Source of the DNA: SAR116 cluster bacterium
GTDB lineage: Bacteria > Pseudomonadota > Alphaproteobacteria > Puniceispirillales > Puniceispirillaceae
Assembly (NCBI GenBank): GCA_004212735.1
Contig: SHBD01000006.1
Location: 1 to 64,000, forward strand
Direction of reading: 5' to 3'
Length of the DNA stretch: 64,000 nucleotides
Position 1 is the first letter of the stretch. Each line of letters opens with the position of its first letter. Below the pieces are notes generated by a model that ran no database searches, had not been told where the DNA came from, and saw only the letters and a list, made by a program, of their open reading frames with translations. The position numbers were made by a program, and so were the translations under genes. Positions 8,713 to 31,973 of this stretch are shown here, in pieces.

Positions 8713-8771
8713 CTTCCTGTTCCTTTCATCAAAAATCACCAGTCACGGTGACGGGCGGTGTTTTATGTTTT

Positions 8772-8995: not shown

Positions 8996-9042
8996 AACTT
9001 GCCGGCATACAGATGGCGGACAGCAGACAGGACGCGGTGATG

Positions 9043-12320: not shown

Positions 12321-12397
12321 CCCTATTTCATCCGGGCTTGTTTCATTTGGCCCTATTTCATCCGGGCTTGTTTCATTTGGCCCTATTTCATCCGGGC
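12321..12397 (-). repeat. 30-bp tandem repeat over the ABC ATPase stop codon
   Basis: Two full copies (12321-12350, 12351-12380) and a 17-bp third copy (12381-12397). The third copy contains the end of the ATPase gene with its stop codon, so the gene terminus itself has been duplicated downstream. Confidence 0.9.
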
Positions 12398-14059
12398 GAT
12401 GGCCGCATCGCCGATATTGTCGGCACCGCGACTTTCAAGCAGCCTGTCGAGCCATTTTGGATCCATCTCCGGCACCGAGCCAAGCAGCAACTCTGTATAG
12501 GCGTGGTGTGGCGGGACAAACATCTCTGATTTCGGCCCCTGTTCCACCACATTACCATCCTTCATCACCACGACTTCATCGGCAATGGCGCGAACTGTCG
12601 CAAGGTCATGGGTGATAAACATATAGGAAAGATCAAGCTCACTTTGAAGTCTGTCAAGCAGCTTGAGAATGCCCTCGGCGACAAGCTGGTCAAGCGCGCT
12701 TGTCACCTCGTCACAGATGATGAAGCCGGGCTCGGCGGCAATCGCCCGGGCGATGCCGATGCGCTGTTTCTGGCCGCCTGATAATTCGGAGGGCAGACGG
12801 TCAATATATTGATCGGGCTCCATCTCGATCATCCGCAGAAGATCACGCACGCGGTCCTCCAGCGCGCGGCCTGACAGCCCCAGATACATCGCCGCTGGCC
12901 GGGCGATCAGATCACGGATGCGCAGCTTTGGATTGAGCGCGGTATCGGCCATCTGATAAATCATCTGGACATGGCGGAGCTGGTCACGGGTGCGGTCCTG
13001 ATAATTGGCAGGAAGCGGTGCTCCGGCAAAGCTGACGCTGCCCATGCGCGGCTCCAGCAGGCCGGTGATCACCCGCGCCGTGGTCGATTTACCACTGCCG
13101 GACTCGCCAACAACGGCCACCGTGCGGCGCTTGTGAATGGCAAAGGAGACGTCCTTTAGAATGTCCTGACGCGGGGAATAGCCGGCGGTGACATTGGTAA
13201 TCTCGATCACCGGCTGCTGGCCGGTCACGAGCGGCTGCTCGGCGCGCGCATATTCGCGCACCGCCCAGAGTGATTTGGTGTAATCCTCTTTCGGGCTTTT
13301 CAGCATCTTTGCCGTTGTCGCCTGTTCGACCTCATCGCCCTTGAGAAGCACTTTGATGGTGTCTGCCATCTGGGCAACGACAGCCAGATCGTGGCTGATA
13401 TAGATGGCGGCCGTATTGAATTGTTTGACAATATCACGGATCGCGGCAAGCACCTCGATCTGGGTGGTGACGTCAAGCGCCGTTGTCGGTTCATCAAAAA
13501 TGATCAGATCGGGACGGCAGGAAAGCGCCATCGCGGTCATCGCGCGCTGGAGCTGGCCACCAGACACCTCATGCGGGTAGCGCAGCCCGAACTCATCCGG
13601 ATCTGGCAGATTCATCCTCTCATAAAGGCTGGTTGCGTAGGTTTCAGCCTCCGACCGGGCCATCACATCATGCTTCAACGGTGCCTCGCAAAACTGGTCG
13701 ATCAGACGATGCGCCGGATTGAAGCTGGCAGCCGCCGATTGGGCGACATAGGCGATGCGGCGGCCGCGAAGCTGGCGCAATTGCTGTCTGGACTGGCTGA
13801 GCAGGTCAAGCCCGTCAAATTCGATGGAGCCATCGGTGATCTTGCAACCATCCCGGCAAAACCCCATCGCGGCAAGGCCAAGGGTCGATTTGCCAGCCCC
13901 GGACTCACCGATCAGGCCAAGCACCTCGCCCCGGTTGAGATCAAGATCGACACCATTGATGATATCGACCCAGGTCTCGTCACTCAGCCCCTTGATATGG
14001 ACATTGCGCATGGTCAGGAGCGGCGCGGAGGAGCTGGTGTTGGTGGTTTTGGGTGACAT
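12383..14059 (-). CDS. Dipeptide/oligopeptide-type ABC transporter, fused double ATPase
   Basis: 558 residues with two complete ABC ATPase domains, equal to DppD and DppF joined (YejF/GsiA type). Domain 1 has GESGAGKST, signature [10 protein letters not shown] and Walker [13 protein letters not shown]. Domain 2 has [23 protein letters not shown] and [12 protein letters not shown]. It powers import through the two permeases encoded upstream. AGGAGG precedes the ATG at 14059 by six bases. The C-terminal few codons lie in a 30-bp tandem repeat. Confidence 0.9.
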
Positions 14060-14068
14060 CGGCGCCTC

Positions 14069-14992
14069 CTAATCCTTGAGACCGCTGGCGCGGTGCAGCA
14101 ACCAGTCAACGACGAAATTGACCGCAATTGTCAGAATGGCAATGGCCCCCGCCGGAATCAGTGGTGTGATATCGCCAAAGCTGATCAGCTCTGCATTGTC
14201 GCGCACCATCGAACCCCAGTCAGCGGTCGGCGGTTGCAGGCCAAGACCAAGAAAGGACAGCGAGGAAATCATCAGGAACACAAAGCAGAAACGCAGGCCA
14301 AATTCGGCAGCCAGCGGCGCCGTCGCGTTTGGCAGAATCTCGCGGGTGATCAGATAGACCGTGCTCTCGCCGCGCAGCTTTGCCGCCTCGATATAGTCCA
14401 GCTGGACGATGTTGAGCGCCACCGAACGCGCCAGACGAAACACCCGGGTCGAATCGATTGTCGCAATCACCAGAACAAGCGAGATCACCGAGGTGCCGAA
14501 AATGGTCAGCATCAGGAGTGAGAAAATCAGCGACGGAATGGCCATCAGCACATCAATCAGCCGGCCCACCACCTGGTCGATGATGCCGCCCTTGAGCGCC
14601 GAATAAATGCCAAGAAGCGTCCCCGCGACAAAGGCAAGCGCGGTGATCAGAAAGGCAATGCCAACCGTGTTGCGCGCGCCATAGACAAGCCGGGTAAAGA
14701 CATCACGCCCAAGATTGTCGGTGCCAAGAATATAGGGCGCGGCCCATGGCTCAAAGGAGGCAGACAGAATTTCAGACTCGCCAAACGGCGCGATCAGTGG
14801 CGCAAAAACGGCGCAGGTCACATAAATGGTGATGGTTAGCATGCCAAAACTGGCAGTGAGCGGTGCCGTGCGCAGGAATTTCGCCGTCGGCGCATTGACC
14901 AGACGGATCAATGTCTGGCGAAACAGCCAGCCAGCGCCAAGCGATACCGCGACAACAATTGGCAACCAGATCAGGACGGAGATCAGACTCAT
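14069..14992 (-). CDS. ABC transporter permease, DppC-like
   Basis: 307 residues with about six membrane segments, starting with LISVLIWLPIVVAVSLGAGW. The DppC hallmarks are LGTDNLGRDVFTRLVYGAR and the EAA loop around IEAAKLRGESTVYLITREILPNA. It pairs with the DppB-like permease 12 bp upstream and precedes the ATPase by 9 bp, all in one operon. The substrate class of this family includes peptides, nickel chelates, opines and other small amides. Nothing in the permease identifies the ligand. Confidence 0.9.
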   Translation of the reverse strand: MSLISVLIWLPIVVAVSLGAGWLFRQTLIRLVNAPTAKFLRTAPLTASFGMLTITIYVTCAVFAPLIAPFGESEILSASFEPWAAPYILGTDNLGRDVFTRLVYGARNTVGIAFLITALAFVAGTLLGIYSALKGGIIDQVVGRLIDVLMAIPSLIFSLLMLTIFGTSVISLVLVIATIDSTRVFRLARSVALNIVQLDYIEAAKLRGESTVYLITREILPNATAPLAAEFGLRFCFVFLMISSLSFLGLGLQPPTADWGSMVRDNAELISFGDITPLIPAGAIAILTIAVNFVVDWLLHRASGLKD

Positions 14993-15004
14993 CGCTCCCC
15001 TCCC

Positions 15005-15958
15005 CTATTTCTGTCGCATCAGGCGGGGGTTGGTCGCCGTCGAGATAATGTCGGCCAGCAGATTGAGACCGACATAGGCGCTGGCGAACACCAGCGAGGA
15101 CGCCTGCACCACCGGCACATCCCGGAACCGGACACCATCAACCATCAACTGACCAAGCCCGGGAAAGACAAAGACAATCTCGACAATCACCACGCCGGTG
15201 ATCAGATAGGCCAGATTGAGCGCAACAACATTGACGATCGGCGCCAGCGCATTCGGCAGCGCATGGCGGAAAATGATGCGCGAGGGCTTGATGCCTTTCA
15301 GGTGCGCCATTTCTATATAGGGAAGCGCCAGAATATTGATGATCGCAGCCCGCGTCATGCGCATCATATGGGCGGTAACCACCAGCGTCAGGGTGAGCGC
15401 CGGCAGGAAACAGGCATAGAGCTTTTCAAGAAGCGGCGTCGAGGGGGTGATGTTCGCCATCGACGGGAAATAGCCGGACAGCGCCAGAAAATAAATCAGG
15501 ATATAGCCAACGAAAAATTCCGGCATCGAAATTGCCGAAAGCGCCGTTGCATTGCTGATCCGGTCAAAATAGCTGTTGCGGAACAGCGATGCCATCATGC
15601 CAAGGATAATCGCCAGGGGAACGGCGATGCAGGCCGTGTAAAGGGTCAGGAACAGGGTGTTCTGAAGGCGCGGCGCAATCAGATCAATGATCGGCCGCTT
15701 GAGCGCCAGCGATGTGCCAAAATCACCCTGCACCATGCCGCCAAGCCATTCGATATAGCGTATGTGAGGCGGCAGATCGAGGCCAAGCTGACGGCGGATC
15801 GCCGCGACCGCTTCAGGCGTGGCCTGCTGGCCAAGAATTTCCTGCGCCAAATCGCCGGGAAGCGCCTCAACGGACAGAAAAATCAACAAAGACAGCAGAA
15901 ACAGGGTCAACACCCCCAACGCCAGTCTTTTGATGATCATGATTATCAGGTTTTTCAT
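15005..15958 (-). CDS. ABC transporter permease, DppB-like
   Basis: 317 residues. RLALGVLTLFLLSLLIFLSVEALPGD is the first helix with the conserved PGD. The ATPase-contact loop is YIEMAHLKGIKPSRIIFRHALPNA, and FPGLGQLMVDGVRFRDVPVVQ lies near the end, as in DppB/OppB. It is separated from the binding-protein gene by 177 bp containing a strong hairpin, so it is probably expressed below the level of that gene. The start could also be the ATG at 15940. Confidence 0.9.
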   Translation of the reverse strand: MKNLIIMIIKRLALGVLTLFLLSLLIFLSVEALPGDLAQEILGQQATPEAVAAIRRQLGLDLPPHIRYIEWLGGMVQGDFGTSLALKRPIIDLIAPRLQNTLFLTLYTACIAVPLAIILGMMASLFRNSYFDRISNATALSAISMPEFFVGYILIYFLALSGYFPSMANITPSTPLLEKLYACFLPALTLTLVVTAHMMRMTRAAIINILALPYIEMAHLKGIKPSRIIFRHALPNALAPIVNVVALNLAYLITGVVIVEIVFVFPGLGQLMVDGVRFRDVPVVQASSLVFASAYVGLNLLADIISTATNPRLMRQK

Positions 15959-16080
15959 GGTGCCGGTTAAATTTCAGTCAGAATGGCAGCGGCATGACGG
16001 GACCCTCGAGAGATACCTGTCAGCCTCCAGCCAAGCAGATAAAAACAGTGCAAAAAAATCAAAGCGGAGAAAGCGGAGAA

Positions 16081-16106
16081 GGAAAGCCATCTGTTGATGG
16101 CTTTCC
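16081..16106 (-). terminator. Strong intercistronic hairpin after the binding-protein gene
   Basis: GGAAAGCCATC and GATGGCTTTCC form a perfect 11-bp stem with a 4-base loop, 30 bp beyond the binding-protein stop. No tight T run follows, so partial termination or 3' mRNA protection, common after binding-protein genes, is more likely than full stop. Confidence 0.75.
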
Positions 16107-16135
16107 CCGCACTATGTAGGACAAATCGCTGTCTC

Positions 16136-17800
16136 TTATGTTTTCCACCAGCGAAGTGAACAGCGGTGGCCGTCCAGCTCCCAGTCGTTGCCGACAACAT
16201 CCGGAACACCCACGGAAGTGCGGTATCCCATCAGCTCTGACTGGAACAATGGCAGACACAGACCGCCATCATTATGCACGATCTGCTGCATCTCGACATA
16301 CATCGAACGACGCTTTGAGGTGTCTGTCTCGGCGCGTGCCTCGAGCAGCAGCTTGTCAAAGCCGGCATTCTTCCAATTGGTGTCGTTCCAGCCTGCATCG
16401 GAGGCATAGATCAATGAGAAGATCCAGTCTTCGGTAGGCCGGCCACTCCAGTAACAGGCGGAAAAGGCCTTCTGCATCCAGACATTTGACCAGTAGCCAT
16501 CATTCGGCTCACGCACAACCTCGATGTTGATGCCCGCAGCCTTGGCAGATTCTGCCATCAGCGAGCCCGCATCGACAGCGCCGGCAAAGCCGGTGTCAGC
16601 CGCGTGGAACTTGATGGACAGACCGTCATGACCTGCTTTTTTCAGCAATGATTTCGCCAATTCCGGGTCATATTCACGCTGTGGCAGCTCATCGGTGGTT
16701 GCCCGGTAGATGTTGGCAGGACCGATCGGGTTGTCGTTGCCAAGTTCACCATAGCCGAAAAGCACCTTGTCCAGCCATTCCTGACGGTTGACGATGTGCT
16801 TGATCGCGTTCCGAACATTGGGATCCGTAAATGGCTCCTTGTCGCAATGCATCGGCAGGGTAACCTGCTTGTTGCCTGTCGAGATCAGCGTCTTGACGTT
16901 GGGCATCTGCTTCAGCCGTGACGCCGTTTTCGGTGGCACGTTGTTGATACAGTCGATCGCACCGGTTGACAGCGCCGACATACGGGCTGTCGGGTCGATG
17001 ATGCCAAGCGTCTCAACCTCATCGAAATACGCCTCATTACCAGTGTTCCAGTAATTCGGGTTTTTCGTTGTGAAGGCACGGACACCCGGATCATATTCCT
17101 CAAGAACATAACCACCAGCGCCAACGCCAGACTGCCAGTCGATGGTGCCATCACCATTTGATGGGCAGATATTGAGGTGATAGTCAGACAGCGCAACCGG
17201 AATATCGGCATTGCCCTCATTCAGCTCAACGATGACGGTATTCTTGCCATCAGCCGTGATTGACTTGATGCCGCTGACAATACCTTTGGCCGCTGATGTT
17301 GACTCCTCGCCCATATGGTGACGGATGGAGTCAACGATGTCCTCGGAGGTCATGGATTTTCCATTATGGAACTCGACACCCTGACGGACGTTGAATTTCC
17401 ATGTCTTACCACCGTTTGACGGCTCAAAGCTCTCACACAGATCGCCTTCGATCTGGCCATCTGGCCGGATCCGGGTCATGTTGCCGCGTGTCTGGCCCAT
17501 CAACACGTTGATGTTAAAGGCGTCAAGAATCTGGCCCGGGTCAAGAACGTCACTTGTCGAACCACCGGTGATGCCAATTTTGAGGCGGCCACCAGCCTTT
17601 GGTGTTGCAGCGAGCGCCTGCTCAACAACGGTTGATGCGCCGGTCATGGACACACCAAGCGCCAGAGCGCCCGTCATGAAGCCGCGACGACTGATGTTTC
17701 CTGACAGAAAGCCGGTCTGCAGCTTGTCAGCTTTAATCTGAGTTTCCTTGTCCGCTACTTCCGAAGCAATATCGTACATCGGATTTCTTGGATCTTCCAT
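16136..17800 (-). CDS. ABC transporter substrate-binding protein, family 5, Tat-exported
   Basis: 554 residues from ATG 17800, chosen because GGGAGGA lies just upstream. The open frame extends to 17911 but that part lacks family similarity. A twin-arginine signal is visible (SRRGFM at 37-42, hydrophobic run to about 57, ALA-A near 62-65). The mature part is an SBP_bac_5 protein: GRLKIGITGG, the FEPSNGGKTWKFNVRQGVEF strand and SIRHHM follow the DppA/OppA pattern. It would capture the transported compound in the periplasm. The long 30-residue region before the twin arginines is unusual. Confidence 0.9.
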   Translation of the reverse strand: MEDPRNPMYDIASEVADKETQIKADKLQTGFLSGNISRRGFMTGALALGVSMTGASTVVEQALAATPKAGGRLKIGITGGSTSDVLDPGQILDAFNINVLMGQTRGNMTRIRPDGQIEGDLCESFEPSNGGKTWKFNVRQGVEFHNGKSMTSEDIVDSIRHHMGEESTSAAKGIVSGIKSITADGKNTVIVELNEGNADIPVALSDYHLNICPSNGDGTIDWQSGVGAGGYVLEEYDPGVRAFTTKNPNYWNTGNEAYFDEVETLGIIDPTARMSALSTGAIDCINNVPPKTASRLKQMPNVKTLISTGNKQVTLPMHCDKEPFTDPNVRNAIKHIVNRQEWLDKVLFGYGELGNDNPIGPANIYRATTDELPQREYDPELAKSLLKKAGHDGLSIKFHAADTGFAGAVDAGSLMAESAKAAGINIEVVREPNDGYWSNVWMQKAFSACYWSGRPTEDWIFSLIYASDAGWNDTNWKNAGFDKLLLEARAETDTSKRRSMYVEMQQIVHNDGGLCLPLFQSELMGYRTSVGVPDVVGNDWELDGHRCSLRWWKT

Positions 17801-18096
17801 TTTATCCTCCCAGGAAGTTTTTATGAAAATTAGTAAAAGGTGAAGCGCGTGCTTTTGCAAGCCCTTATCACCAGAAAAGCCAAGGGAAATCGTCTTTATT
17901 CTGACCAGCACTCATAAAACTGACCAAAAGTAAGTCAATCTGCCACATGCACCCATCATTTTACCGAAACGGGAATGGGAGATTGACGGGCGCTGGGGAG
18001 GTGAAGATGAAAATCATCTCTGCTCAAACATCAATGGTGGAAGATTGTGAATCCGGATGATCGGGAGAAATATGGCCAGTGTCATTGATATGGGTA
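17801..18096. other. 296-bp gap between binding protein and EamA gene
   Basis: It should hold the leftward promoter of the transporter operon, though no convincing -35/-10 pair was picked. A strong GGGGAGGTG ribosome site precedes ATG 18007, but that frame ends after 17 codons (MKIISAQTSMVED...). This looks like the start of a lost gene. An overlapping frame reads HQWWKIVNPDDREKYGQ, also protein-like and unrecognised. Confidence 0.3.
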
Positions 18097-18945
18097 TCAC
18101 CGTTTTACCAGAGCAACGAAACCTGCACACATGATGATCGCACCACCCAACATTGTCGAACTGGAGGGAATGGTGTTCAACATGAGGAACGCAAAGACGG
18201 GGGCCAGAGGGGTTTCAAGCGCGCTGAGCAGAGCTGACTCCGCAGGAGAGATCCATTTCGAGCCTTCTGCCAATAATAAGGCCGCTGCACAGAATGAAAG
18301 TGAAAACAGAGCAATCAACCACAGATCATCCGGGTTCACCGTCACATCCATTTTGATCAACAATGTCACAAACAATGGCACTAAATTGGCCAGAACAAGG
18401 GGCAAGGTGACAGGTGTTTCAGGGAATCGCCGATAGATGCAAAGATATGATGCCATGCCCAAAGTCATGACAAGAGCCAGGACATCACCAAAAATCCCGC
18501 CACCGTCAGTCGAGTCACGCATGATGATTGCCACCCCGAGAAGAGACACCATGCCGGCGACCATGACCACCGGTCGGGGACGTTCAGCGAACCATGTCCA
18601 GGCGATGACAGCGGCGAGAAAGGGTGCGGTGGCATAAATCAGCGCAACATTCGCAACCGAAGTATGTTTGAACGCAAGAATAAAGGCAGTCCCGCTAACC
18701 GCAGCGAAAAATGTGGCAACCCACGCCGCACCCCGAAACGCGTCTATCTCCTCTGCCAGCCTTTTGCGCACCATCAGCAAGCCACCAAAGAACATGGTGA
18801 TAAACACGCCGCGCAGAACGACGATGGTCCATCCGTCAGCCGGGATCAGTTTTACAAAGACGCCGGTCAGGCTGAAAAACACCGCCGAGGCAACCACCAT
18901 GACCCTGCCCCGCTTTGCGGAATAATCATAGGGCGGAATAATCAT
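18097..18945 (-). CDS. EamA-family (DMT) transporter
   Basis: 282 residues, ten predicted helices in two EamA halves, starting RVMVVASAVFFSLTGVFVKL and with the second half from about FGDVLALVMTLGMASYL. Such permeases export or import amino acids and other small metabolites. The substrate is not predictable. The start region is itself duplicated: a 16-bp unit containing ATG is repeated, so 18945 may be a repeat-created start and ATG 18900 the older one. It is the most downstream gene of the leftward group with the AA_synth, hydrolase and RidA genes. Confidence 0.8.
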   Translation of the reverse strand: MIIPPYDYSAKRGRVMVVASAVFFSLTGVFVKLIPADGWTIVVLRGVFITMFFGGLLMVRKRLAEEIDAFRGAAWVATFFAAVSGTAFILAFKHTSVANVALIYATAPFLAAVIAWTWFAERPRPVVMVAGMVSLLGVAIIMRDSTDGGGIFGDVLALVMTLGMASYLCIYRRFPETPVTLPLVLANLVPLFVTLLIKMDVTVNPDDLWLIALFSLSFCAAALLLAEGSKWISPAESALLSALETPLAPVFAFLMLNTIPSSSTMLGGAIIMCAGFVALVKR

Positions 18946-18966
18946 AGGGCGGTATCATCATGCAGG
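18919..18966 (-). repeat. 16-bp repeat around the EamA start codon
   Basis: GGAATAATCATAGGGC at 18919-18934 and 18935-18950, with a diverged third copy to 18966. Each copy carries an ATG on the minus strand, in different frames because 16 is not a multiple of three. Confidence 0.8.
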
Positions 18967-19022
18967 AAGGGGCTGGATCGCTTTAGGTCCGTCATCGACC
19001 TCAGGTTACACAGGGGTAATAA

Positions 19023-19625
19023 TCAGACACCAGCCGGATTATCAACATCGGCGCCGATGGCGGCAAGATCGGTATAGCGGTCGCCAATGCGATGATGCGG
19101 GCGGCCGCCACTGGCCCCACCAAAGGCGGCGATCAGCTCATCAGCGGCGGGCGCATCATGAACCGACATCTGCACGGTCAGATAATGCGAGCGGCGGCCG
19201 GTGTCATTCTTGTCCATCAGGGGGATGTTGATCTGGGTGTTGGCCGGACCGCGTGTGTTGGTAAAGCCGAGATAGCTCTTGCCAGCAACCGCCTGGCGAA
19301 AGAAATTGCCGAAATGCAGCGTGTGGATCAGCGCGGAGGCATGTTCAAGCTCGCAATCGGTGCCCGACATGGCGGCCTTGCCAAACGCCTCAATGGCGTC
19401 ACCGCCGCCACCCATCTTCAGCATCTCATCCGTCAGGCGCTGGCCAAGAATGGGGCCAAAAGCCTGAATTTCCGGGGACAGGTCCTCGACAAAGCCGCGC
19501 CCGGCCCACGGGTTTTTGACGATCGCCGCCGCAGCAAAAATATCCAGCGGCCGGGGCGCATCGCGCCCACCCTCGACCAAAATGGTTTCTTTATAGGTTA
19601 CGATCTTGCGGATGGTCAATTTCAT
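19023..19625 (-). CDS. Amino acid synthesis (AA_synth, former DUF1185) family protein
   Basis: 200 residues matching the AA_synth/DUF1185 pattern. It starts with IRKIVTYKETILVEGG, followed by AAAAIVKNPWAGRGFVEDLS, a glycine-rich KMGGGGDAIEAFGKAA and KSYLGFTNTRGPAN. Despite the family name the biochemical role is not established to my knowledge. Members are found in catabolic clusters with RidA proteins and hydrolases, as here: the hydrolase gene lies 27 bp upstream and RidA before it. GGAG seven bases before ATG supports the start. A step in breakdown of a nitrogen compound is inferred from context only. Confidence 0.8.
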   Translation of the reverse strand: MKLTIRKIVTYKETILVEGGRDAPRPLDIFAAAAIVKNPWAGRGFVEDLSPEIQAFGPILGQRLTDEMLKMGGGGDAIEAFGKAAMSGTDCELEHASALIHTLHFGNFFRQAVAGKSYLGFTNTRGPANTQINIPLMDKNDTGRRSHYLTVQMSVHDAPAADELIAAFGGASGGRPHHRIGDRYTDLAAIGADVDNPAGV

Positions 19626-19652
19626 CGGTGGCTCCAGCGAGGTTGGTTCGAA

Positions 19653-20522
19653 TCAGCGGGGGATGGTGGCACAGAATTGTGCCAAATGGTGATTAAAAAT
19701 GTCCGGCGCCTCACACATCGCCATATGGCGCAGACCCGGCAGAATGACCAGTGAGGCCCCGGCAATCTCTGCCGCTATGGCGGCGCTCATCGCCGGGTTG
19801 TTGCCGTAATCCTCATCCCCGGTGAGAACAAGGCAGGGTGCGGCAATCGGCGGGGATGGCGCGACCAGCTCGGCAACGCCATCAACCAGCACCTGATAAA
19901 TGGCGGGATAGATTTGTGGATCATTGGCCAGCACCCAATCACGCACATCCTGCATGACCGCCGGATTGGCCGCGTGAAAACCGGGCGTGAACCAGCGTTC
20001 AAGCGCCGCATCAATTGTGGCCCCCGGCCCGGCCGCCGCCGCCTGATAAACGCGCGCCTGAATGGCATCCTGTTCGGCTTTGGTTCGGGCATGGGGTGAA
20101 TTGAGGATGGCAAGACCGCTGACCAGATGTGGCATATCCATGGCGATCCGCCGGACGATCATGCCGCCAAGCGAAAACCCGGCAATGATCGCATGGGGCA
20201 GATCAAAATGCGTCATGACGCCGGCAAACTGGCGGGCAAAGAGTGCCAGCGAGGGAGGTTCGGGCGGCGCCGGCGAGTCACCATGGCCGTAGAGGTCATA
20301 GGTGATGATGTGCCGGTCTTGCGACAGGGCGGGTGTCTGTTCGCGCCACATTGCCCGATTGAGACCAAGGCCATGGATCAGGATCAAAGGTGGGCGTGAG
20401 GGTGATGGAGCCGCATCCGGGCCGAAAAGCTGGCAGGCGGTGCCATCAGCACAATGGATGGGCGCATGGCTGATCATCGGGGTGGCCATCGGGGGGGCCA
20501 TCGGAGGGGCGCTTGTCACCAC
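19653..20522 (-). CDS. Alpha/beta hydrolase (RutD/PcaD-like)
   Basis: About 289 residues. Oxyanion strand LILIHGLGLNRAMW, nucleophile elbow GFSLGG, acid in VLTGDEDYGNNPA and histidine in GLRHMAM make a complete catalytic triad. The best general match is the 3-oxoadipate enol-lactonase / aminoacrylate hydrolase group. The gene abuts RidA: the GTG at 20522 follows the RidA stop directly. The first 15 residues derive from a 12-bp repeat (MAPPMATPM), and ATG 20477 may be the older start. Pairing of RidA with such a hydrolase recalls RutC-RutD of pyrimidine breakdown. Confidence 0.8.
   Translation of the reverse strand: MVTSAPPMAPPMATPMISHAPIHCADGTACQLFGPDAAPSPSRPPLILIHGLGLNRAMWREQTPALSQDRHIITYDLYGHGDSPAPPEPPSLALFARQFAGVMTHFDLPHAIIAGFSLGGMIVRRIAMDMPHLVSGLAILNSPHARTKAEQDAIQARVYQAAAAGPGATIDAALERWFTPGFHAANPAVMQDVRDWVLANDPQIYPAIYQVLVDGVAELVAPSPPIAAPCLVLTGDEDYGNNPAMSAAIAAEIAGASLVILPGLRHMAMCEAPDIFNHHLAQFCATIPR
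20472..20507 (-). repeat. Three 12-bp repeats at the hydrolase N terminus
   Basis: Units at 20472, 20484 and 20496 related to GGCCATCGGGGG. Each adds a possible in-frame ATG to the N terminus of the hydrolase. Confidence 0.75.
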
Positions 20523-20948
20523 TCAATCCCCGGATGAAGTTGTGGGGGTTTGGGGATGATAGGCGATCACCTCAATCTCGATCTTCACATCGACCAGCAG
20601 ATCGCTGACCACGGCTGAGCGTGCCGGTGGCGCATGCGGGAAATATTCGGCATAGACAGCGTTGAAGCCGGGGAAATCATCGCGCGAGGTTAACCAGACC
20701 ATAGATTTGACCACATCCGCCAGAGCGCAGCCGGCAAGCGCCAGCGTCGCGGCGATATCATCAAGAACGGCGCGGGTCTGATCCTCTATGCTGCCATCAG
20801 TCATCACCGCGCCATCCCGCATCGGCACCTGTCCGGTCAGATAAACCATATCGCCAGCGCGCACCGCACGCGATAGTGACAGGGTACGCCCATTGATTAC
20901 GACCGGCCCGCCAATCACCTGTTTTGCCATCATTGCCTCACTTGTCAT
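20523..20948 (-). CDS. RidA/YjgF/RutC-family enamine-imine deaminase
   Basis: 141 residues or slightly fewer. RidA features are VYLTGQVPMRDG, QTRAVLDDIAATLALAG and the active-site arginine in PPARSAVVSDLLVDVKIEIEVIA. RidA proteins hydrolyse reactive enamines/imines. Relatives include 2-aminomuconate deaminase and RutC. It is divergent from an aldehyde dehydrogenase and directly followed by an alpha/beta hydrolase, a set that suits stepwise breakdown of a nitrogen heterocycle or aminomuconate-like intermediate. The ribosome site and start exist twice: ATG 20948 and ATG 20933 are each preceded by AAGTGAGGCA because of an 18-bp duplication. Confidence 0.85.
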   Translation of the reverse strand: MTSEAMMAKQVIGGPVVINGRTLSLSRAVRAGDMVYLTGQVPMRDGAVMTDGSIEDQTRAVLDDIAATLALAGCALADVVKSMVWLTSRDDFPGFNAVYAEYFPHAPPARSAVVSDLLVDVKIEIEVIAYHPQTPTTSSGD

Positions 20949-20963
20949 CAGTGCCTCACTTGA
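20928..20963 (-). repeat. 18-bp duplication of the RidA ribosome site and start
   Basis: CATCATTGCCTCACTTGT (20928-20945) and CATCAGTGCCTCACTTGA (20946-20963) differ at two positions. On the minus strand each supplies a Shine-Dalgarno-like GAGGCA and a nearby ATG. Confidence 0.85.
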
Positions 20964-20979
20964 ATTTTTGTAGCCTTAA

Positions 20980-21044
20980 TTGGAGTCTCTTGTTGGAGTC
21001 CCTTGTTGGAGTCCCTTGTTGGAGTCTCTTGTTGGAGTATCTGG
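20980..21044 (+). repeat. Five 13-bp tandem repeats (TTGGAGTCCCTTG)
   Basis: Copies at 20980, 20993, 21006, 21019 and 21032 in the divergent gap between RidA and the aldehyde dehydrogenase, with one or two changes each. Confidence 0.9.
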
Positions 21045-21209
21045 CCAAGCCTAGGGGATGTTGCATTTGCGGTGCAAGCCCCCTCAAACCTTCAGAATGG
21101 CCAGTCATAGGCTGGCGAGGGATTTTCTTGGGAGCAGAATTATGCAAGCATCGCACAGGTTTGAAATCCACGCGTCCGATGACGCGCATTTTTTTCGAGG
21201 GAGAGGTAA

Positions 21210-22694
21210 ATGTCTGAGCCAATTCACTATCGTATGCTGATCAATGGAGAGTGGGTCGACGCCAGCGATGGCGCCCGGTTCGACAGTATCAACCCGGCGA
21301 CCGAACAGGCGTGGTGCAGCATCCCCGAGGCCACCGCCGATGATATCAACCGCGCCGTTGAAACCGCGCATGACGCCTTTAGCAGCGGCGAATGGGCCAG
21401 CCTAACGCCGACAGCACGGGGCAAATATCTGCGCCGTCTGGCCGAATTGCTGGATGAGCAGTCCGAGCATCTTGGCCGGATTGAGACGATCGATACGGGG
21501 AAAATGCTGAAGGAAACCCGGTGGCAGGCAAAATATATTGCCGAGTTTTTTCAGTTCTATGCCGGGTGTGCCGACAAGATCAGCGGCCAGACATTGCCGA
21601 TCGACAAGCCGGATATGATGACGATCACCCTGCGCGAGCCGCTTGGGGTGGTGGCCGCCGTGGTGCCGTGGAATTCGCAATTGTTTCTGGTCGCGGTGAA
21701 GATCGGGCCAGCGTTGGCGGCGGGGAACGTTGTGGTGCTGAAAGCGTCCGAGCATGCGTCGGCGGCAATGCTGGAATTTGGCAAGCTGGTCGAGGCCGCA
21801 GGCTTTCCCCCCGGCGTGATCAACATCGTCACCGGCCATGCCGACCCATGCGGCAAGGTGCTGACATCGCATCCGCTGGTCCAGCGAATCAGCTTTACCG
21901 GGGGCACCGGGGCGGCAAAACATGTGGTGCGCAATTCGGCAGAGAATTTTGCCCAGGTGTCGCTGGAGCTTGGCGGTAAATCGCCCTTTATCGTGTTTGG
22001 CGATGCCAATATCGAGAGCGCGGTCAATGGCTCCATCGCTGGTATTTTTGGTGCCAGCGGCCAGAGCTGTGTCGCCGGATCACGGCTGTATCTGCATAAC
22101 AGCATCGCCGACGAGTTTCTGGAACGGATGCTGGCGGTGACAGCCACGATCCGCATTGGCGATCCGCTGGCCGAAGAGACGCAGATGGGACCGCTGGCAA
22201 CGCTGGCGCAGATTGAGCATATCGAGAGGCAGGTCGCGCTGGCACAGGAACAGGGCGGCACGGTGCTTAGCGGTGGCAAGCGTCCGCAAACGCCAAATCA
22301 GGGCTGGTTCTATGAGCCGACAATCATCGCCTGCCCGGACCAGAAAATGACGATTGTCGATACCGAGCTGTTCGGGCCGGTGTTGAGCGTGCTGCGCTTT
22401 GACGATGAGGATGAGGTAACGGCGCTGGCGAATGACAGCAAGTTTGGCCTTGCCGCTGGTGTGTTTACGCAGAATGGCGCGCGCGCCATGCGCATGACCA
22501 AGGCGTTGCGGGCAGGTATTGTCTGGGTCAACACCTACCGCGTCGTCTCGCCAATCGCCGAATTTGGTGGTTACAAGGAGTCCGGCTATGGGCGGGAAAG
22601 CGGCATGCAGGCGATCTATGACTATACGCGGCCAAAAACCGCCTGGATCAACATTTCGGATGAGGCCATGGCCAACCCGTTCGTCATGCGCTAA
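21210..22694 (+). CDS. Aldehyde dehydrogenase family protein
   Basis: 494 residues, full-length NAD(P)-dependent aldehyde dehydrogenase. It shows the cofactor/fold motif VVPWNSQLFL, catalytic Glu in LELGGKSP and catalytic Cys in GASGQSCVAGSRL. The C-terminal GGYKESGYGRESG is typical. GGGAGAGG lies just upstream of the ATG. It belongs to the branch that oxidises semialdehydes (2-hydroxymuconate, betaine, succinate types). The substrate cannot be read off. It is divergent from RidA and probably shares control with it. Confidence 0.9.
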   Translation: MSEPIHYRMLINGEWVDASDGARFDSINPATEQAWCSIPEATADDINRAVETAHDAFSSGEWASLTPTARGKYLRRLAELLDEQSEHLGRIETIDTGKMLKETRWQAKYIAEFFQFYAGCADKISGQTLPIDKPDMMTITLREPLGVVAAVVPWNSQLFLVAVKIGPALAAGNVVVLKASEHASAAMLEFGKLVEAAGFPPGVINIVTGHADPCGKVLTSHPLVQRISFTGGTGAAKHVVRNSAENFAQVSLELGGKSPFIVFGDANIESAVNGSIAGIFGASGQSCVAGSRLYLHNSIADEFLERMLAVTATIRIGDPLAEETQMGPLATLAQIEHIERQVALAQEQGGTVLSGGKRPQTPNQGWFYEPTIIACPDQKMTIVDTELFGPVLSVLRFDDEDEVTALANDSKFGLAAGVFTQNGARAMRMTKALRAGIVWVNTYRVVSPIAEFGGYKESGYGRESGMQAIYDYTRPKTAWINISDEAMANPFVMR

Positions 22695-22703
22695 GCCGCC
22701 TGA

Positions 22704-25046
22704 TCACCGCATGATCACCGCATCGACAGCGGTGACGCCATCAGTGCCGACAAACAGCGGATTGATCTCGACAAGTGACAGGCCGGGATCATCCGCCAAC
22801 GCCGTTGTCAGCTGATTGATCGCAGTGATCAGGGGCGCTAAATCAGCCACATCGCCGCCGCGATAACCACGCAGGATCCGGGCCATGGCAAGCCGGTCGA
22901 TGGCAGCGGCAATCACATCATCAGAGGCTGGCACCAACAAGGTGACAGCATCGCCCAGAAGCTCAACCAGAACCCCGCCAGAAGCCAGCGTCAGGACAAG
23001 ACCAAAGGCCGGATCACGGCGCAGGCTCAGCATCAGCTCACCAAGGGGGGATGGCTGCATCGCCTCAACCAGATAGCCGGTGCGGCGCGCGGTGGGGGCA
23101 TGCTGGGTGAGGTTGGCGTCAATGGTGGCAAGCGCGGCCAGCAGTTCATCGCCTGAGCCGATATTGAGGACCACCGCGCCAACCTCCGATTTATGCGGCA
23201 GATCGGGGCTGAGTGCCTTGGCAACAAGCGGATAATCCAGCCCGGGGGGAAGCGCTGGCGGCATCTGGGTTTGGGTCGGCAAATCGGCAAGAATGAGCGA
23301 TGGTGGCACGGAAATCTGCCAGCTGCTCAGCAGGGCTTTTGCCGCCGCCTCATCGAGCATTACGGCATCAAAAGTGGCGGCAGCGCTGATGGGCGGCGTG
23401 TCATCAAGACTCTTGTCATCAAAACTCTTGTCATCAAGATTCGGGTCATCAAGATTCTTGTCATCAAGACTCTTATCATCAAGATTCGGGTCATCAAGAT
23501 TCGGGTCATCAAGACTCTTGTCATCAAGATTCGGGTCATCAAGATTCGGGTCATCAAGACTCTTGTCATCAAGATACGGGTCATCAAGATTCGGGTCATC
23601 AAGATTCGGGTCATCAAGGATCAGGGGGGGCGGTGGATCGGCAAGCAGCCGGCGGCGCGCCGCGCCGTATCTGGCCGCAGCGGCAATCGCACGGACGCAA
23701 TCGCCAATGCCCTGCATCGGGGCGACGTTTTTTGCCACTAGAAACGCCCGCGTTTCGACATCCAGATTTTCTGCAATCGTGCTACAGACCGCAGCCGGAA
23801 GGCCCGCCGCCGCCGCCGCGTTGAGGAAGCTGATGGAATCATTGCGGTAGAATGGCTTGCTCTCATCAAGGCCGGCGGCTGGATAATCCTGAATGATCAC
23901 GGCGGCATCATAGCCATCGGCAAAAAGCGTGGAGAACACCGGCTCAGTCTTGTCCGGCACGCCCCAGATCGGCGTCGTGTAATCAAGCGGATTGGAGACG
24001 GTGGCGGTCAATGGCAATTGGGTGCGCAGACGTTCAGCGGTGGCAGCGCTTGGGCGGGGCAAATCAAGCCCATGGGCCTCAGCAGCATCAGCAAGCATGG
24101 TCGCGCCGCCCCCCGAACAGGCAAGACCGGCCAAGCGGCGGCCAGCCGGCACCCCGGCAACGGTGAGGAATTTCAGCGTCTCCAGCATCTCGGACGGTTC
24201 AGTAACCCGGATCATGCCGAGCCGGTCAAAGAACGCATCATAAACCTCATCCGCGCCAGAGAGTGACCCGGTGTGGCTGACCGTCAACTCGCTGCCAAGC
24301 GCCGAAGTGCCGGTCTTGAGAGCGACAAGCGGGACGTTGTTTGCCAGAGCTTTCAAACCCGCTGCCTGAAAACGCTGGGGATCGCGGATGCCTTCGATAT
24401 GGACGCCGATGGCGCTGACCTCAGGCAAGTCGGCAAGGGTGTCGATGAAATCCTCGATGCGGAGCACCGCCTGATTGCCAACCGAGAGCATATAGCTGAG
24501 CGGCAGGCCGCGCTGCGCCATTGTCAGATCGGAGGAGAGCATGCCGCTCTGGGTGATGATCGCGGCACCGCGCCCATGAAAACCGCCGCCATGGGCAAAG
24601 GGCCAGAGCGCCACACGATCTACATAATTGATCAGCCCATAGCAGTTCGGGCCAATGATCGCCATATCGCCAGCCGCCTCGATCAGCGCCGCCTCCATCG
24701 CCGGGCCATCGCCGCCAATCTCGGCAAAACCGGCGGTATAAATGATGGCACCGCCTGCCCCCATCGCACTGAGGCGGGCAAGGCTGTCAATCGCCTGTTC
24801 ACGCGGCACGGCGATAAACACAGCATCCGGCGGTTCGGGCAGATCATCAACCGATGGGAAACAGGCAAAACCGCCAATGGTCTCGCGCTTTGGATTGACC
24901 GGCCAGAACGGGCCATCATAGCCGATGCGCCGACATTCACCGGCCACCGTCTCGGCATCAACGCCGCCAAGAACGGCGACATGACGCGGGCGCAGCAGCC
25001 GGCGCAGATTGGCCTGTAGGGATGGGCTGTCGGGTGCCGGTGTCAT
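22704..25046 (-). CDS. ADP-forming acyl-CoA synthetase (acetate-CoA ligase family), alpha-beta fusion
   Basis: 780 residues. Order: CoA-binding domain (about 10-130, RHVAVLGG, FWPVNPKRETIGG), succinyl-CoA-ligase-like domains (about 140-465, IGPNCYGLIN near the start, THDGS-like VSHTGSLSGADEVYDAFF) and an ATP-grasp domain (about 555-780, PLVAKALSPDLPHKSEVGAVVLN). It makes an acyl-CoA from acid, CoA and ATP through a phosphohistidine. Between the halves, residues 475-549 are fifteen pentapeptides (DDPNL/DDKSL) from a 15-bp repeat, about 75 residues of acidic linker. Context with acyl-CoA dehydrogenase and CaiD-like genes suggests activation of gamma-butyrobetaine, carnitine or a related acid. 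Confidence 0.88.
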   Translation of the reverse strand: MTPAPDSPSLQANLRRLLRPRHVAVLGGVDAETVAGECRRIGYDGPFWPVNPKRETIGGFACFPSVDDLPEPPDAVFIAVPREQAIDSLARLSAMGAGGAIIYTAGFAEIGGDGPAMEAALIEAAGDMAIIGPNCYGLINYVDRVALWPFAHGGGFHGRGAAIITQSGMLSSDLTMAQRGLPLSYMLSVGNQAVLRIEDFIDTLADLPEVSAIGVHIEGIRDPQRFQAAGLKALANNVPLVALKTGTSALGSELTVSHTGSLSGADEVYDAFFDRLGMIRVTEPSEMLETLKFLTVAGVPAGRRLAGLACSGGGATMLADAAEAHGLDLPRPSAATAERLRTQLPLTATVSNPLDYTTPIWGVPDKTEPVFSTLFADGYDAAVIIQDYPAAGLDESKPFYRNDSISFLNAAAAAGLPAAVCSTIAENLDVETRAFLVAKNVAPMQGIGDCVRAIAAAARYGAARRRLLADPPPPLILDDPNLDDPNLDDPYLDDKSLDDPNLDDPNLDDKSLDDPNLDDPNLDDKSLDDKNLDDPNLDDKSFDDKSLDDTPPISAAATFDAVMLDEAAAKALLSSWQISVPPSLILADLPTQTQMPPALPPGLDYPLVAKALSPDLPHKSEVGAVVLNIGSGDELLAALATIDANLTQHAPTARRTGYLVEAMQPSPLGELMLSLRRDPAFGLVLTLASGGVLVELLGDAVTLLVPASDDVIAAAIDRLAMARILRGYRGGDVADLAPLITAINQLTTALADDPGLSLVEINPLFVGTDGVTAVDAVIMR
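23401..23625 (-). repeat. Fifteen 15-bp tandem repeats in the acyl-CoA synthetase linker
   Basis: Contiguous units of TCATCAAGATTCGGG or TCATCAAGACTCTTG (plus-strand reading) with few other variants. Each encodes five residues, DDPNL or DDKSL. The two variants alternate in blocks, which suggests unequal exchange as well as slippage. It is the longest repeat in the window. Confidence 0.95.
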
Positions 25047-25152
25047 TATGATGTCATTAGGGTGTCATTACGAGGTCATCAAAAGTGGCGTCAAAAGTGG
25101 GGGCGTCAAAAGTGGCAACATCAGGGTTTTATGAGGAAGTCATGAGGGTGTC
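25040..25152. repeat. Degenerate repeats before the acyl-CoA synthetase gene
   Basis: Two families: GTGTCATTA-type units around 25040-25070 and 25148, and GCGTCAAAAGTGG units at about 25075-25115. They fill much of the 163-bp gap to the acyl-CoA dehydrogenase. No clear ribosome site is left for the synthetase. Confidence 0.6.
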
Positions 25153-25209
25153 ATCTGACGATCAGTCGCCATGGCATGAGCCATTTTACGAGTCATATTG
25201 GTCGCCATA

Positions 25210-26385
25210 TTACGCACCGAGCGGCCGCAGGATCGACCGGGTGATGATATGGCGCTGAATCTCCGAGGTGCCATCCCAGATGCGTTCCAGCCGCGAATCA
25301 CGCCACAGCCGGTGGATCGGCATTTCCTCCATCAGGCCCATGCCACCATAAATCTGCACAGCATCATCGGCTGTCCGGCACAGCATTTCAGAGCAATAGA
25401 GCTTGACCATAGCAGCGTCGCTGTCGCTCATCTGGCCCTCATTGGCGCGGGCGATGGCGTCCTTGACCATCAATTGTCCAGCGCGCAGGCCAACCGCCAT
25501 ATCAGCAAGTTTGAAGCCGGTCGCCTGAAATTTACCGATGGCCTGGCCGAATTGCTTGCGATTGGCCGCCCAGTCACAGGCCATGTCGTAAATCCGTTCC
25601 GCCTTGCCGCAACAGGTTGCGCCAACCCAAATCCGGCCCATGCCAAGCCATTTGCCAGCCAGCTCCAGCCCCCGGCCCTCTTCACCCAGAACATGCGCCG
25701 AGGACAGGCGGACATCATCAAAATCCAGCCGGAAATTCAGATAGCCGCGATAGCTGGTGCAGTTATAGCCGATGCTGACCTCAAAGCCCGGCATGCCGAC
25801 ATCGACCAGAAAGGCGGTGATGCGGGGCCGTGGTCCGCGCGGTGTCTCATCATGCCCGGTGGCGGCAAAGACAATGGCGAAATCAGGCGTTACCGGGCCG
25901 GAGATAAAATGTTTCGAGCCATTGAGGATCCAGTCATCGCCATCACGCCGCGCATTGCTTTTCATTGACATGATATCGGACCCGGCCTCTGGCTCGCTCA
26001 GACCAAACAATTCGCGTTTCTCGCCGGTGACGCAGGGCAGCAGATAGGTGTCCCGCTGATCGCCCTCACAGGCAAGCAGAATCTCGGTCGGGCGCGCCAC
26101 CCATGAATGCAGCGCGTGCGAGGTTTTGCCAAATTCATATTCGATCAGGCCCATCTGTTCATAATCAAGGCCGCCGCCGCCGATCTCGGCTGGCAGGTTG
26201 GCGGCAAACAGCCCGACCTCACGCGCCCGTTGCTCAATCTGGCGACCAAGCTCAATCGGCACATGCGCATCGCGGTCAATAGCCTCCTCATGGGGGAACA
26301 TCTCAGCGTCCATGAAGCGACGCACTGTTTCTTGCAGCATCTGCTGTTCGTGATTGAAATTATCGAGCATGATCTTGGCTTTCAT
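25210..26385 (-). CDS. Acyl-CoA dehydrogenase family protein
   Basis: 391 residues. ACAD features: FGLSEPEAGSDIMSMKSNA (FAD/substrate strand), ANRKQFGQAIGKFQATGFKLADM, AVQIYGGMGLMEEMPIHRL and the C-terminal WDGTSEIQRHIITRSI. The family introduces a 2,3-double bond into acyl-CoAs using FAD and ETF. It lies between an ADP-forming acyl-CoA synthetase and a beta-keto acid cleavage enzyme, with CaiD-like and carnitine dehydrogenase-like genes beyond the regulator. A gamma-butyrobetainyl-CoA dehydrogenase is therefore a plausible role. ATG 26370 is an alternative start. Confidence 0.88.
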   Translation of the reverse strand: MKAKIMLDNFNHEQQMLQETVRRFMDAEMFPHEEAIDRDAHVPIELGRQIEQRAREVGLFAANLPAEIGGGGLDYEQMGLIEYEFGKTSHALHSWVARPTEILLACEGDQRDTYLLPCVTGEKRELFGLSEPEAGSDIMSMKSNARRDGDDWILNGSKHFISGPVTPDFAIVFAATGHDETPRGPRPRITAFLVDVGMPGFEVSIGYNCTSYRGYLNFRLDFDDVRLSSAHVLGEEGRGLELAGKWLGMGRIWVGATCCGKAERIYDMACDWAANRKQFGQAIGKFQATGFKLADMAVGLRAGQLMVKDAIARANEGQMSDSDAAMVKLYCSEMLCRTADDAVQIYGGMGLMEEMPIHRLWRDSRLERIWDGTSEIQRHIITRSILRPLGA

Positions 26386-26438
26386 CCGGTCTGGGTCAGT
26401 GGTGGCGGGATTTGGGTGGTACAGGCAATCGGACAGTT

Positions 26439-27323
26439 CTAGCGCTTGCGAAGGCCGAGTTTTTCGCGCGCTTCTGCCGGGGTTAAAATGGTGGCACCCA
26501 TGCGCTCAATAATCTCCCTGGCGCGTGTCACAAGCTGGGCATTGGTCGCCAATACGCCGCGATCAAGATAGATATTATCTTCCAGACCAACGCGCACATT
26601 GCCGCCAAGTGCCACCGCAGCGGCGGCCATCGGCATCTGCATGCGGGAAATGCCAAAGGAGGCCCAGGACGCATCGGCGGGCAGTTCATCCTTCATCACC
26701 TTCATATTATCGACCGATTGGTCAGCCCCCCACGGAATGCCAAGACAAATCTGGAACATCGGCGGGGCGTCGATAATGCCCTCGGCGATCATCTGTCTGG
26801 CGAAGCGAATCTGGCCAAGCTCAAAGACTTCAAGTTCCGGCTTGACGCCCAATTCCTGAACAATGCTGGCCATTTTGCGCAAATAGGCCGGGGTCGAGAT
26901 GTAAATCTCGTTGCCATTGCCGAAATTCATCGTGCCACAATCAAGCGAACAGATTTCCGGCAGCAACGCGGTGACATGGGCCAGACGTTCCTCCGGTCCG
27001 ATCATGTCGGTTCCGGGACCGGGCAATGCCGGGTCTGTATCAGACGGCACCCAATCACCGCCCATGCCAGCGGTCAAATTGATCACCACGTCGGTGTCGC
27101 TGTCGCGAATCCGATCAACCGCCTCGCGGAACAGCGCGACATCACGCGACCCCTGCCCGGTCTCAGGATCGCGGACATGAATATGGGCAGATGTTGCCCC
27201 AGCCTTTGCCGCATCAATCGCGGCGGTGGCAATTTCAGCAGGTGTCACCGGAACATGCGGATTTTTGCCGGTGGTATCACCCGCCCCGGTAACCGCACAG
27301 GTCAGAACAACGTCAAAATTCAT
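26439..27323 (-). CDS. Beta-keto acid cleavage enzyme (BKACE), dehydrocarnitine cleavage type
   Basis: 294 residues from ATG 27323, which has GGGGAG six bases upstream. The family (3-keto-5-aminohexanoate cleavage, PF05853) is recognised from [14 protein letters not shown], the zinc histidines in [10 protein letters not shown], the NLTAGMG strand, [12 protein letters not shown] and LEVFELGQI. BKACEs exchange acetyl-CoA with a beta-keto acid, giving acetoacetate and a new acyl-CoA. With a carnitine dehydrogenase-like gene and an AraC/GATase regulator next door, 3-dehydrocarnitine is the likely substrate, giving betainyl-CoA. No thioesterase for that product is seen in the window. Confidence 0.88.
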
Positions 27324-27524
27324 TTCGATCTCCCCCACGGCCCTTCTTTGAAGTGGTATCACGTCAAATTGTCATCAGGCCCGTTGGTCATTGCATGATT
27401 ATTGCCTGATTTTTCACCCGGCAACCGGGTTCGCTTGTAAATATTTCGCCAAAATGGATATTTTTTCGTAAGGTGATCACAGGTAAGCGATCAGGGATGC
27501 GATCAGAGGGTGGCGGGGCGTAAA

Positions 27525-28706: not shown

Positions 28707-28775
28707 CGAAATAGAAGGTTTTTATATATTTCAATATGTTGAACTATTAAACTTCATTATATTAATTAAGATGAA

Positions 28776-29711: not shown

Positions 29712-29745
29712 CTCGGGATCCCTTTCGGCTTGGTGGTTACCGGCT

Positions 29746-29783
29746 GGTTACTTGTTTTTTGGGTGGTTACTTGTTTTTTGGGT
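29746..29783 (-). repeat. Two 19-bp tandem repeats at the CaiD-like gene end
   Basis: GGTTACTTGTTTTTTGGGT twice without change. The partial third copy (GGTTA) contains the stop codon of the CaiD-like gene. Confidence 0.85.
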
Positions 29784-29785
29784 GG

Positions 29786-30589: not shown

Positions 30590-30688
30590 CACAAATTTCT
30601 CCCCTGGTGGATTTTTATGGGCCGGCATGACGGCATATTTTGCGGCAGATAGTGTCGTAGCTGGTGCCGCGCATGGTGTCGTATCTGG

Positions 30689-31726: not shown

Positions 31727-31973
31727 GTCTTTCATCTCCCCACCGCACCGTCACAAAGCCGGACCGAACAGCTCATCATGTCGGGGAACAGCACCCCAAA
31801 TAACCACATTTTTGACGTTAACAAAAATTTTTGGACAGAATGCACCGGTAAAATGGCACAAAATCGTCATTTCACGCCAGTTTTGGGCATGGACGACCAC
31901 TGCAATCAGAACCAATAGCACGCAGCGGATTATTTGATTTGATTTCGGGTGGCAATACTCTCACACTCCGCCG

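Follow-up and report, generated by a model that had tools for sequence, protein, structure and literature searches.

We examined a stretch of 64,000 nucleotides from a SAR116 cluster bacterium (assembly GCA_004212735.1, contig SHBD01000006.1, positions 1 to 64,000), called here the window; the nearest named records of this genome are likewise titled SAR116 cluster. A preliminary description had placed at 18097-22694 a module consisting of an AA_synth (DUF1185) protein, an alpha/beta hydrolase (ABH), a RidA-family protein and a divergent aldehyde dehydrogenase (ALDH). Open reading frames (ORFs) and Pfam matches bear out this order, and all four genes are confirmed as real as called (Table 1). 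The interval itself reached too far to the left, since the gene at 18097-18945 is an EamA (DMT) permease with no relative of at least 50% identity in any of 80 AA_synth loci, and we rejected it as a member of the module. The four genes sit in a bigger conserved island of 13 kb (19023-31735) that includes a luciferase-like monooxygenase (LLM) and several coenzyme A (CoA) genes. The island probably opens a small N-methylated ring compound, such as phytoplankton make, with release of methylamine.

Table 1. Genes of the island, followed by other features of the window that are discussed in the text.
Feature	Position	Strand	Evidence
AA_synth / DUF1185 protein (TgnF-like)	19023-19625	-	PF06684, E 8.3e-64, 214.7 bits, gathering cut-off 27
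Alpha/beta hydrolase (ABH), PcaD-like, candidate formamide/lactone hydrolase	19653-20522	-	Abhydrolase_1, 2.1e-23
RidA-family protein (Ribonuc_L-PSP), candidate enamine/imine hydrolase	20523-20948	-	PF01042, 5.5e-28, 97.8 bits
Aldehyde dehydrogenase (ALDH)	21210-22694	+	PF00171
ADP-forming acyl-CoA synthetase-like protein (ACD)	22704-25046	-	PF13607, PF13549
Acyl-CoA dehydrogenase (ACAD)	25210-26385	-	
Beta-keto acid cleavage enzyme (BKACE)	26439-27362	-	PF05853, 1.5e-102
GlxA/GbdR-like AraC-type regulator, candidate island regulator	27510-28706	+	GbdR model, 226 bits, cut-off 480
L-carnitine dehydrogenase-like 3-hydroxyacid dehydrogenase (CDH)	28776-29711	-	NF005471, 311.1 bits, cut-off 414
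Crotonobetainyl-CoA-hydratase-like enoyl-CoA hydratase (ECH)	29786-30628	-	NF002936, 306 bits, cut-off 500
Luciferase-like monooxygenase (LLM), candidate ring-opening oxygenase	30689-31735	-	PF00296, 6.4e-54
mgsC-like gene (N-methylglutamate synthase, glutamate-synthase domain)	1-594	+	PF01645, 2e-34; cut, window starts at contig end
gmaS-like type III glutamine synthetase (gamma-glutamylmethylamide synthetase)	713-2020	+	TIGR03105, 669 bits, cut-off 469.6
Opp-type ABC transporter, candidate importer	12383-17911	-	OppA 16136-17911, OppB 15005-15958, OppC 14069-14992, OppDF 12383-14059

RidA, ABH and AA_synth form a minus-strand run with gaps of 0 bp (RidA/ABH) and 27 bp (ABH/AA_synth), and ALDH diverges from RidA across a 261-bp gap. 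The hydrolase carries a GFSLGG motif with S117 and has H266 within LRHM; against the PcaD model it scores 162.7 bits, below the cut-off of 255.85. RidA contains a PARS motif in which Arg110, which we take to be the catalytic arginine, aligns to the PAR motif of 2dyy, and its score of 91.9 bits for TIGR00004 is narrowly below the cut-off of 106.25. The best solved relatives of ALDH, 4go3 and 4go4, are named putative gamma-hydroxymuconic semialdehyde dehydrogenase, and the protein stays under the cut-offs of both muconic-semialdehyde-type models (TIGR03216, 361 of 693 bits; HpaE, 449 of 638 bits); the likeness to aminomuconate breakdown suggested earlier is, as far as these scores show, one of families only. 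AA_synth is present as a single copy in the genome, has solved relatives in 2qtp and 3byq, and belongs to a family of which some member occurs in 61 of 136 genomes of the same order. For this family, PMC2954203 describes a chorismate-mutase-like fold with conserved salt-bridge and histidine residues.

The LLM, which the preliminary description had set 9 kb from the module, lies 8 kb past ALDH and is co-directional with ECH and CDH, with gaps of 60 and 74 bp. It is part of the same conserved set, being found in 61 of the 80 loci, in Roseobacters and some SAR116 genomes. The gene logic proposed at first (oxygenase, ALDH, hydrolase and RidA) holds. The island itself contains an oxygenase from a family with ring-opening members, its reaction here being putative; this answers the objection, foreseen in the preliminary description, that such an enzyme might be absent from the genome. 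Despite their carnitine-type resemblance, CDH, ECH, ACAD and the regulator all fall below curated equivalog cut-offs, and the crotonobetainyl-CoA dehydrogenase equivalog reaches 162.7 bits, below its cut-off of 540.

Conservation was assessed in the best 80 of at least 476 AA_synth relatives, all in named loci, many of which end at contig ends and were still counted. Neighbours were counted by tblastn; a naive ORF picker misses genes in GC-rich loci, where it calls antisense ORFs, and so was not used for numbers. ABH (at least 25% identity) is found in 75 loci, ALDH (at least 50%) in 70, LLM (at least 30%) in 61 and RidA (at least 60%) in 45; at 55% identity or more, the LLM is found in 42. 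Other recurring neighbours are a flavin reductase (44 loci), CDH (32), ECH (31), BKACE (28), the GlxA-like regulator (28), ACAD (19) and ACD (12). This gene set exceeds chance.

The loci differ in architecture. A1 (52 loci, mostly Roseobacters and SAR116) has the order BKACE-(GlxA)-CDH-ECH-LLM-ALDH facing RidA-ABH-(flavin reductase)-AA_synth, and A2 (19 loci from Ruegeria, Rhizobium, Leucothrix and others) has the order AA_synth-ABH-flavin reductase-LLM-ALDH, often with a LysR-like gene recognized by eye. The remaining nine loci are in neither group and were left out of the comparison. CDH is present in 32 A1 loci and ECH in 31, versus none of the A2 loci; BKACE and GlxA are each present in 28 versus none; ACAD and ACD are likewise missing from all 19 A2 loci. 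RidA is present in 45 A1 loci and in no A2 locus, but A1 was defined by a RidA of at least 58% or an LLM of at least 55% identity, which makes the RidA and LLM counts, unlike those of CDH, ECH, BKACE and GlxA, partly circular. Flavin reductase is found in 26 of the A1 loci. Roseobacters and an Aminobacter plasmid carry the module with CDH, ECH, BKACE and GlxA as a single island, which lies on plasmids in both Aminobacter and Parasedimentitalea, and four SAR116 genomes (G073, G124, G087 and G005) have an LLM in or near it. Even in loci that lack CDH, ECH and BKACE, such as L092, L108, L115 and L127, the regulator is found next to LLM-ALDH. The five-family core of AA_synth, ABH, flavin reductase, LLM and ALDH also occurs in compact runs in Acinetobacter and on Sinorhizobium pSymA. 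A third group, A3, is found on plasmids of Agrobacterium, Azospirillum and Rhizobium, and a fourth, A4, combines ALDH-LLM-(AA_synth)-ABH with an Xsc-like thiamine diphosphate (ThDP) enzyme (420 bits, cut-off 620).

Several loci show variations on these themes. The genome under study has an A4 cluster of its own without AA_synth (L146, G000:C23:56088-62332), in which a LysR-like gene, assigned by eye, faces ALDH-LLM-ABH-ThDP (Xsc-like) and the LLM is 65% identical to that of the window. Locus L155 (G087:C47:115000-134900) has two paralogous ACD/ACAD/ECH/CDH/BKACE sets flanking a single LLM-ALDH-RidA group, which suggests that two similar acids are degraded. In the Roseobacter A1 loci L080, L089 and L143, the flavin reductase appears by eye to be fused to a CaiB-type CoA-transferase, and the corresponding 2.1-kb gene of Parasedimentitalea is annotated as a CoA transferase. 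Clusters with a type-B AA_synth, 32-37% identical to that of the window, were set apart as a different system. One of them (L043:514-9745) is a neighbour of the A1 island in another SAR116 genus, g20, where the type-B gene (36%) directly follows a molybdenum hydroxylase, a 487-aa protein and a PRK04334-type protein, in the company of genes that by eye resemble an FAD subunit, XdhC and MobA; this is another possible N-heterocycle cluster.

We placed the LLM in a tree of 110 rows, built after removing matches that scored below 150 bits, were shorter than 280 residues or duplicated an earlier match; rows were labelled A2 or A3 through their best LLM query and otherwise through their neighbours. 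All 32 A2 rows, from Acinetobacter, rhizobia and Ruegeria, form one clade (100/100) with the window LLM outside it. A4 rows nest inside A1, and A1 requires at least six changes and is therefore no clade by LLM. According to PMC8269262 the trigonelline ring is opened by TgnA/TgnB, and PMC11354265 assigns TgnB to a luciferase-like network. Judging from gene families, A2 would correspond to the trigonelline operon and its LLMs to the TgnB clade, in a tree that did not contain TgnB itself.

A link to methylamine comes from the gmaS-like and mgsC-like genes at the left end of the window, 17 kb from the AA_synth module. According to PMC13390433, GmaS and Mgs are part of a route from methylamine through N-methylglutamate; the simplest reading is therefore that the island releases methylamine. 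The preliminary description had seen in these genes the end product of ring breakdown. They are indeed present and linked, but as they make N-methylglutamate from methylamine, they indicate methylamine release more directly than N-methylglutamate as the product of the ring. The same association, for which a search in other genomes had been proposed, is operonic in SAR116 genus g20: G130 and G134 have a single-strand run mgsA-mgsB-mgsC-gmaS-ECH-CDH followed by the rest of the A1 island without LLM, and G131 (L213) keeps the order mgs-gmaS-ECH-CDH up to a CDH at the contig end. The mgsA, mgsB, mgsC, gmaS and ECH domains of this run were checked in L210, and L211 and L213 were assigned by gene order. 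In one Roseobacter-family genome (L214) mgs-gmaS adjoin AA_synth, and in Shimia (L102) they are 3 kb away; relatives of mgsC adjoin gmaS in L102, L210, L211 and L213.

The two systems also co-occur across genomes. Among 136 SAR116 genomes, gmaS is found in 20 and an A1/A4 LLM in 30, with both in 18 (hypergeometric 1e-12 by genome); by genus, the LLM is present in 8 of 8 gmaS genera versus 11 of 20 genera (p 0.0013). Among 248 genomes of the Roseobacter family, 26 have the LLM, 80 have gmaS and 21 have both (expected 8.4). E-value limits in these genome searches varied (1e-60 and 1e-130 for LLM; 1e-120 and 1e-150 for gmaS). The genome of Ruegeria denitrificans carries an A1 LLM as well as an A2 one. 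In the Roseobacter-family sample, A2 LLMs co-occur with gmaS in 26 of 41 cases (expected 13.2), which fits methylamine release by A2 and would equally be expected if both merely mark marine lineages.

What these results establish is which genes are present, that the set is conserved, how the LLMs divide into clades and that gmaS/mgs are linked to the island. As the leading explanation, we give an even chance to the proposal that the island degrades an N-methylated nitrogen-containing ring betaine of the pyridinium type (homarine/trigonelline class) and releases methylamine, both the reactions and the substrate class being predicted. In such a pathway, the substrate would be taken up through the adjacent ABC transporter and its ring opened by the LLM with FMNH2, and the resulting semialdehyde would be oxidised by ALDH. 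The hydrolase and RidA would then cleave formyl/lactone and enamine/imine bonds, freeing methylamine. Our guess for AA_synth is that it acts on or stabilises an unstable intermediate, akin to the auxiliary role reported for TgnF: PMC7913881 describes TgnF of the Acinetobacter baylyi trigonelline pathway as a homologue of HcdD, a DUF1185 protein of a coumarin pathway, and as stimulating TgnE, and a TgnF-like stimulating effect of HcdD could not be demonstrated. ACD, ACAD, ECH, CDH and BKACE may oxidise and cleave the leftover acid in a carnitine-like sequence, and the methylamine would be captured as N-methylglutamate by GmaS/Mgs.

A number of observations weigh against this proposal. The window LLM is only 40-42% identical to two A2 LLMs, besides lying outside their clade, and the window ABH is only 27-29% identical to tgn-like ABHs. 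The window island has no flavin reductase; the four PF01613 matches in the genome are on contigs other than C56, and identity to the cluster reductases is 26-42% for the two that matched these. Genomes of genus g20 carry the LLM on a separate contig, and gmaS occupies its place. Close linkage to methylamine capture is rare, with gmaS or mgsC (at least 69%) near the island in only 7 of the 80 loci (L102, L103, L104, L111, L114, L118 and L122) and gmaS within 10 kb of the LLM in only 2 of the 21 Roseobacter-family genomes that have both (G568 and G615); in G124, whose genome is a single contig, 0.5 Mb separates gmaS from the island. No gmaS was matched in 12 of the 30 LLM-bearing SAR116 genomes, and the co-occurrence tests ignore shared descent and genome incompleteness. 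The CoA genes are not known to be needed for trigonelline breakdown, and it is hard to see where they would act in a pyridinium route. Among ten genomes with A1 loci that were searched for CDH, three have one at 71-72% identity and seven (L081, L083, L092, L093, L108, L115 and L127) have none above 41%. The CoA part is therefore not always present, and it is here that the idea of a single pathway is least secure.

The ring betaine could more specifically be homarine (N-methylpicolinate), as the preliminary description proposed, with RidA acting on an alpha-imino or 2-(methylamino)muconate-type intermediate and methylamine passing to N-methylglutamate via GmaS/Mgs. We regard this special case as possible, if on the doubtful side. 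The restriction of RidA to A1, a group that it partly defines, and the naming of the nearest ALDH proteins as hydroxymuconic semialdehyde dehydrogenase are consistent with it. Literature sources point the same way: TgnA/TgnB are called unlikely to act on homarine in PMC8269262, so that another oxygenase would be expected, and Mgd is reported in PMC13390433 as a participant in homarine catabolism. This assignment would leave the CoA genes without a clear place, and the second LLM cluster of the same clade in the genome (G000:C23) is an equally good candidate. A comparison of Ruegeria pomeroyi growth on homarine and trigonelline (PMC8269262) was discarded, as the correction PMC10134881 deletes the sentence and the experiment because of a contaminated homarine standard.

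The CoA genes take the lead if the island is instead a carnitine/gamma-butyrobetaine pathway with an upstream branch, in which LLM, RidA, ABH and AA_synth would prepare trimethylaminobutyraldehyde from a precursor such as trimethyllysine, ALDH would convert it to gamma-butyrobetaine, ACD, ACAD and ECH would lead on to carnitine, and CDH and BKACE would cleave it. The top NCBIfam models of CDH, ECH and the regulator (L-carnitine dehydrogenase, crotonobetainyl-CoA hydratase and GbdR), the best ALDH model (BADH) and the co-directional LLM-ECH-CDH run all suggest such a role, yet every score is under its curated cut-off (CDH 311 of 414, ECH 306 of 500, GbdR 226 of 480, BADH 492 of 669). The A2 cousins, moreover, have the same core without CDH, ECH, BKACE, ACAD or ACD, and the genes joined to the island capture methylamine, where carnitine breakdown would yield glycine betaine; we consider this pathway unlikely. 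We give an equally low probability to a reading in which the LLM module opens a ring, the carnitine-like module serves a separate pathway, and the two are merely neighbours that share a regulator. In the seven loci named above, LLM and ALDH are accompanied by RidA, ABH or AA_synth with no CDH/BKACE nearby, and the lack of a closer CDH in their genomes agrees with separable modules; set against this is the A1-specific presence of CDH, ECH and BKACE, frequently within the same strand run as the LLM. The preliminary description had also invoked Rut-like pyrimidine degradation. RidA, ABH and LLM are present at family level, but the genome's two RutA matches (49 and 28.4 bits against 498.3) are proteins other than the window LLM, and RutC (56.3 against 169.1 bits) and RutD (58.7 against 238.5 bits) fall far under their cut-offs, which makes a Rut pathway highly improbable.

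The flanks of the island contain further genes. The Opp-type transporter also follows AA_synth in L031 and L033 and in G124 of another family (L042); in L031, a near relative, the EamA permease is absent from the corresponding place and AA_synth is followed by OppA. In Aminobacter and Parasedimentitalea, another kind of ABC transporter accompanies the island. Two divergent arginase-family genes lie at 7729-10059 of the window. The first has relatives (at least 60%) in 11 of the 80 AA_synth loci, and such relatives are also near A4 clusters in L153 and L195; from this distribution, the ureohydrolase may belong to the pathway. Short tandem repeats are also numerous in the window (52 TRF rows, partly overlapping). 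Several of them sit inside long ORFs and have a period divisible by three; positions of the repeats include 23400-23618, 27546-27622, 39148-39204, 42408-42575, 43792-43875 and 55084-55139; an LDDPNLDD-type stretch lies within the acyl-CoA synthetase-like gene.

More broadly, and with somewhat less than even expectation, we propose that LLM plus DUF1185 clusters are widespread and largely unrecognised degraders of N-methyl ring betaines with at least four architectures. A1 would then be an undescribed hybrid that runs from luciferase-type ring opening to a carnitine-like CoA finish with GmaS/Mgs methylamine capture, encoded in the same operon in some SAR116 genomes. If so, DUF1185 would gain a catabolic role, away from its supposed one in amino-acid synthesis, and SAR116, Planktomarina and other Roseobacters would obtain carbon, nitrogen and methylamine from an N-methylated metabolite of phytoplankton, adding a source of methylamine in SAR116 and Roseobacters. 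Separate LLM clades might distinguish users of different N-methyl betaines in metagenomes. The operonic gmaS/mgs link makes the pathway directly testable, because methylamine is expected from the substrate, which may itself turn out to be already published.

Four described systems offer points of comparison. The island has the RidA, ABH and LLM superfamilies in common with the Rut pathway, whose RutA, RutC and RutD models score below their cut-offs here. A carnitine cdh-type operon, as in Pseudomonas, consists of CDH, BKACE and an AraC-type regulator; all three families are present here, along with ECH and ACAD relatives of gamma-butyrobetaine enzymes, but the window CDH, ECH, ACAD and regulator stay under equivalog cut-offs and are embedded with LLM, RidA and AA_synth. 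With the homarine operon (Ferrer-Gonzalez et al. 2026, Nat Microbiol), represented here by its citation in PMC13390433, the island may have a link to N-methylglutamate metabolism in common, which we examined on the synthesis side (mgs and gmaS) and for which PMC13390433 names Mgd. The tgn and A2 operons, such as those of Acinetobacter venetianus plasmid CP060162 and Sinorhizobium pSymA, have the same LLM, ALDH, ABH and DUF1185 set; AA_synth is 59-64.5% and ALDH 54-56% identical between the window and A2 operons, with A2 standing in for the A. baylyi genes, and the window differs by adding RidA, GlxA and CoA genes and by its lack of a flavin reductase. Of the systems described so far, the trigonelline (tgn) pathway comes closest in its gene families, and the island is a tgn-like variant among LLM/DUF1185 clusters that carries a carnitine-like extension and is linked to methylamine.

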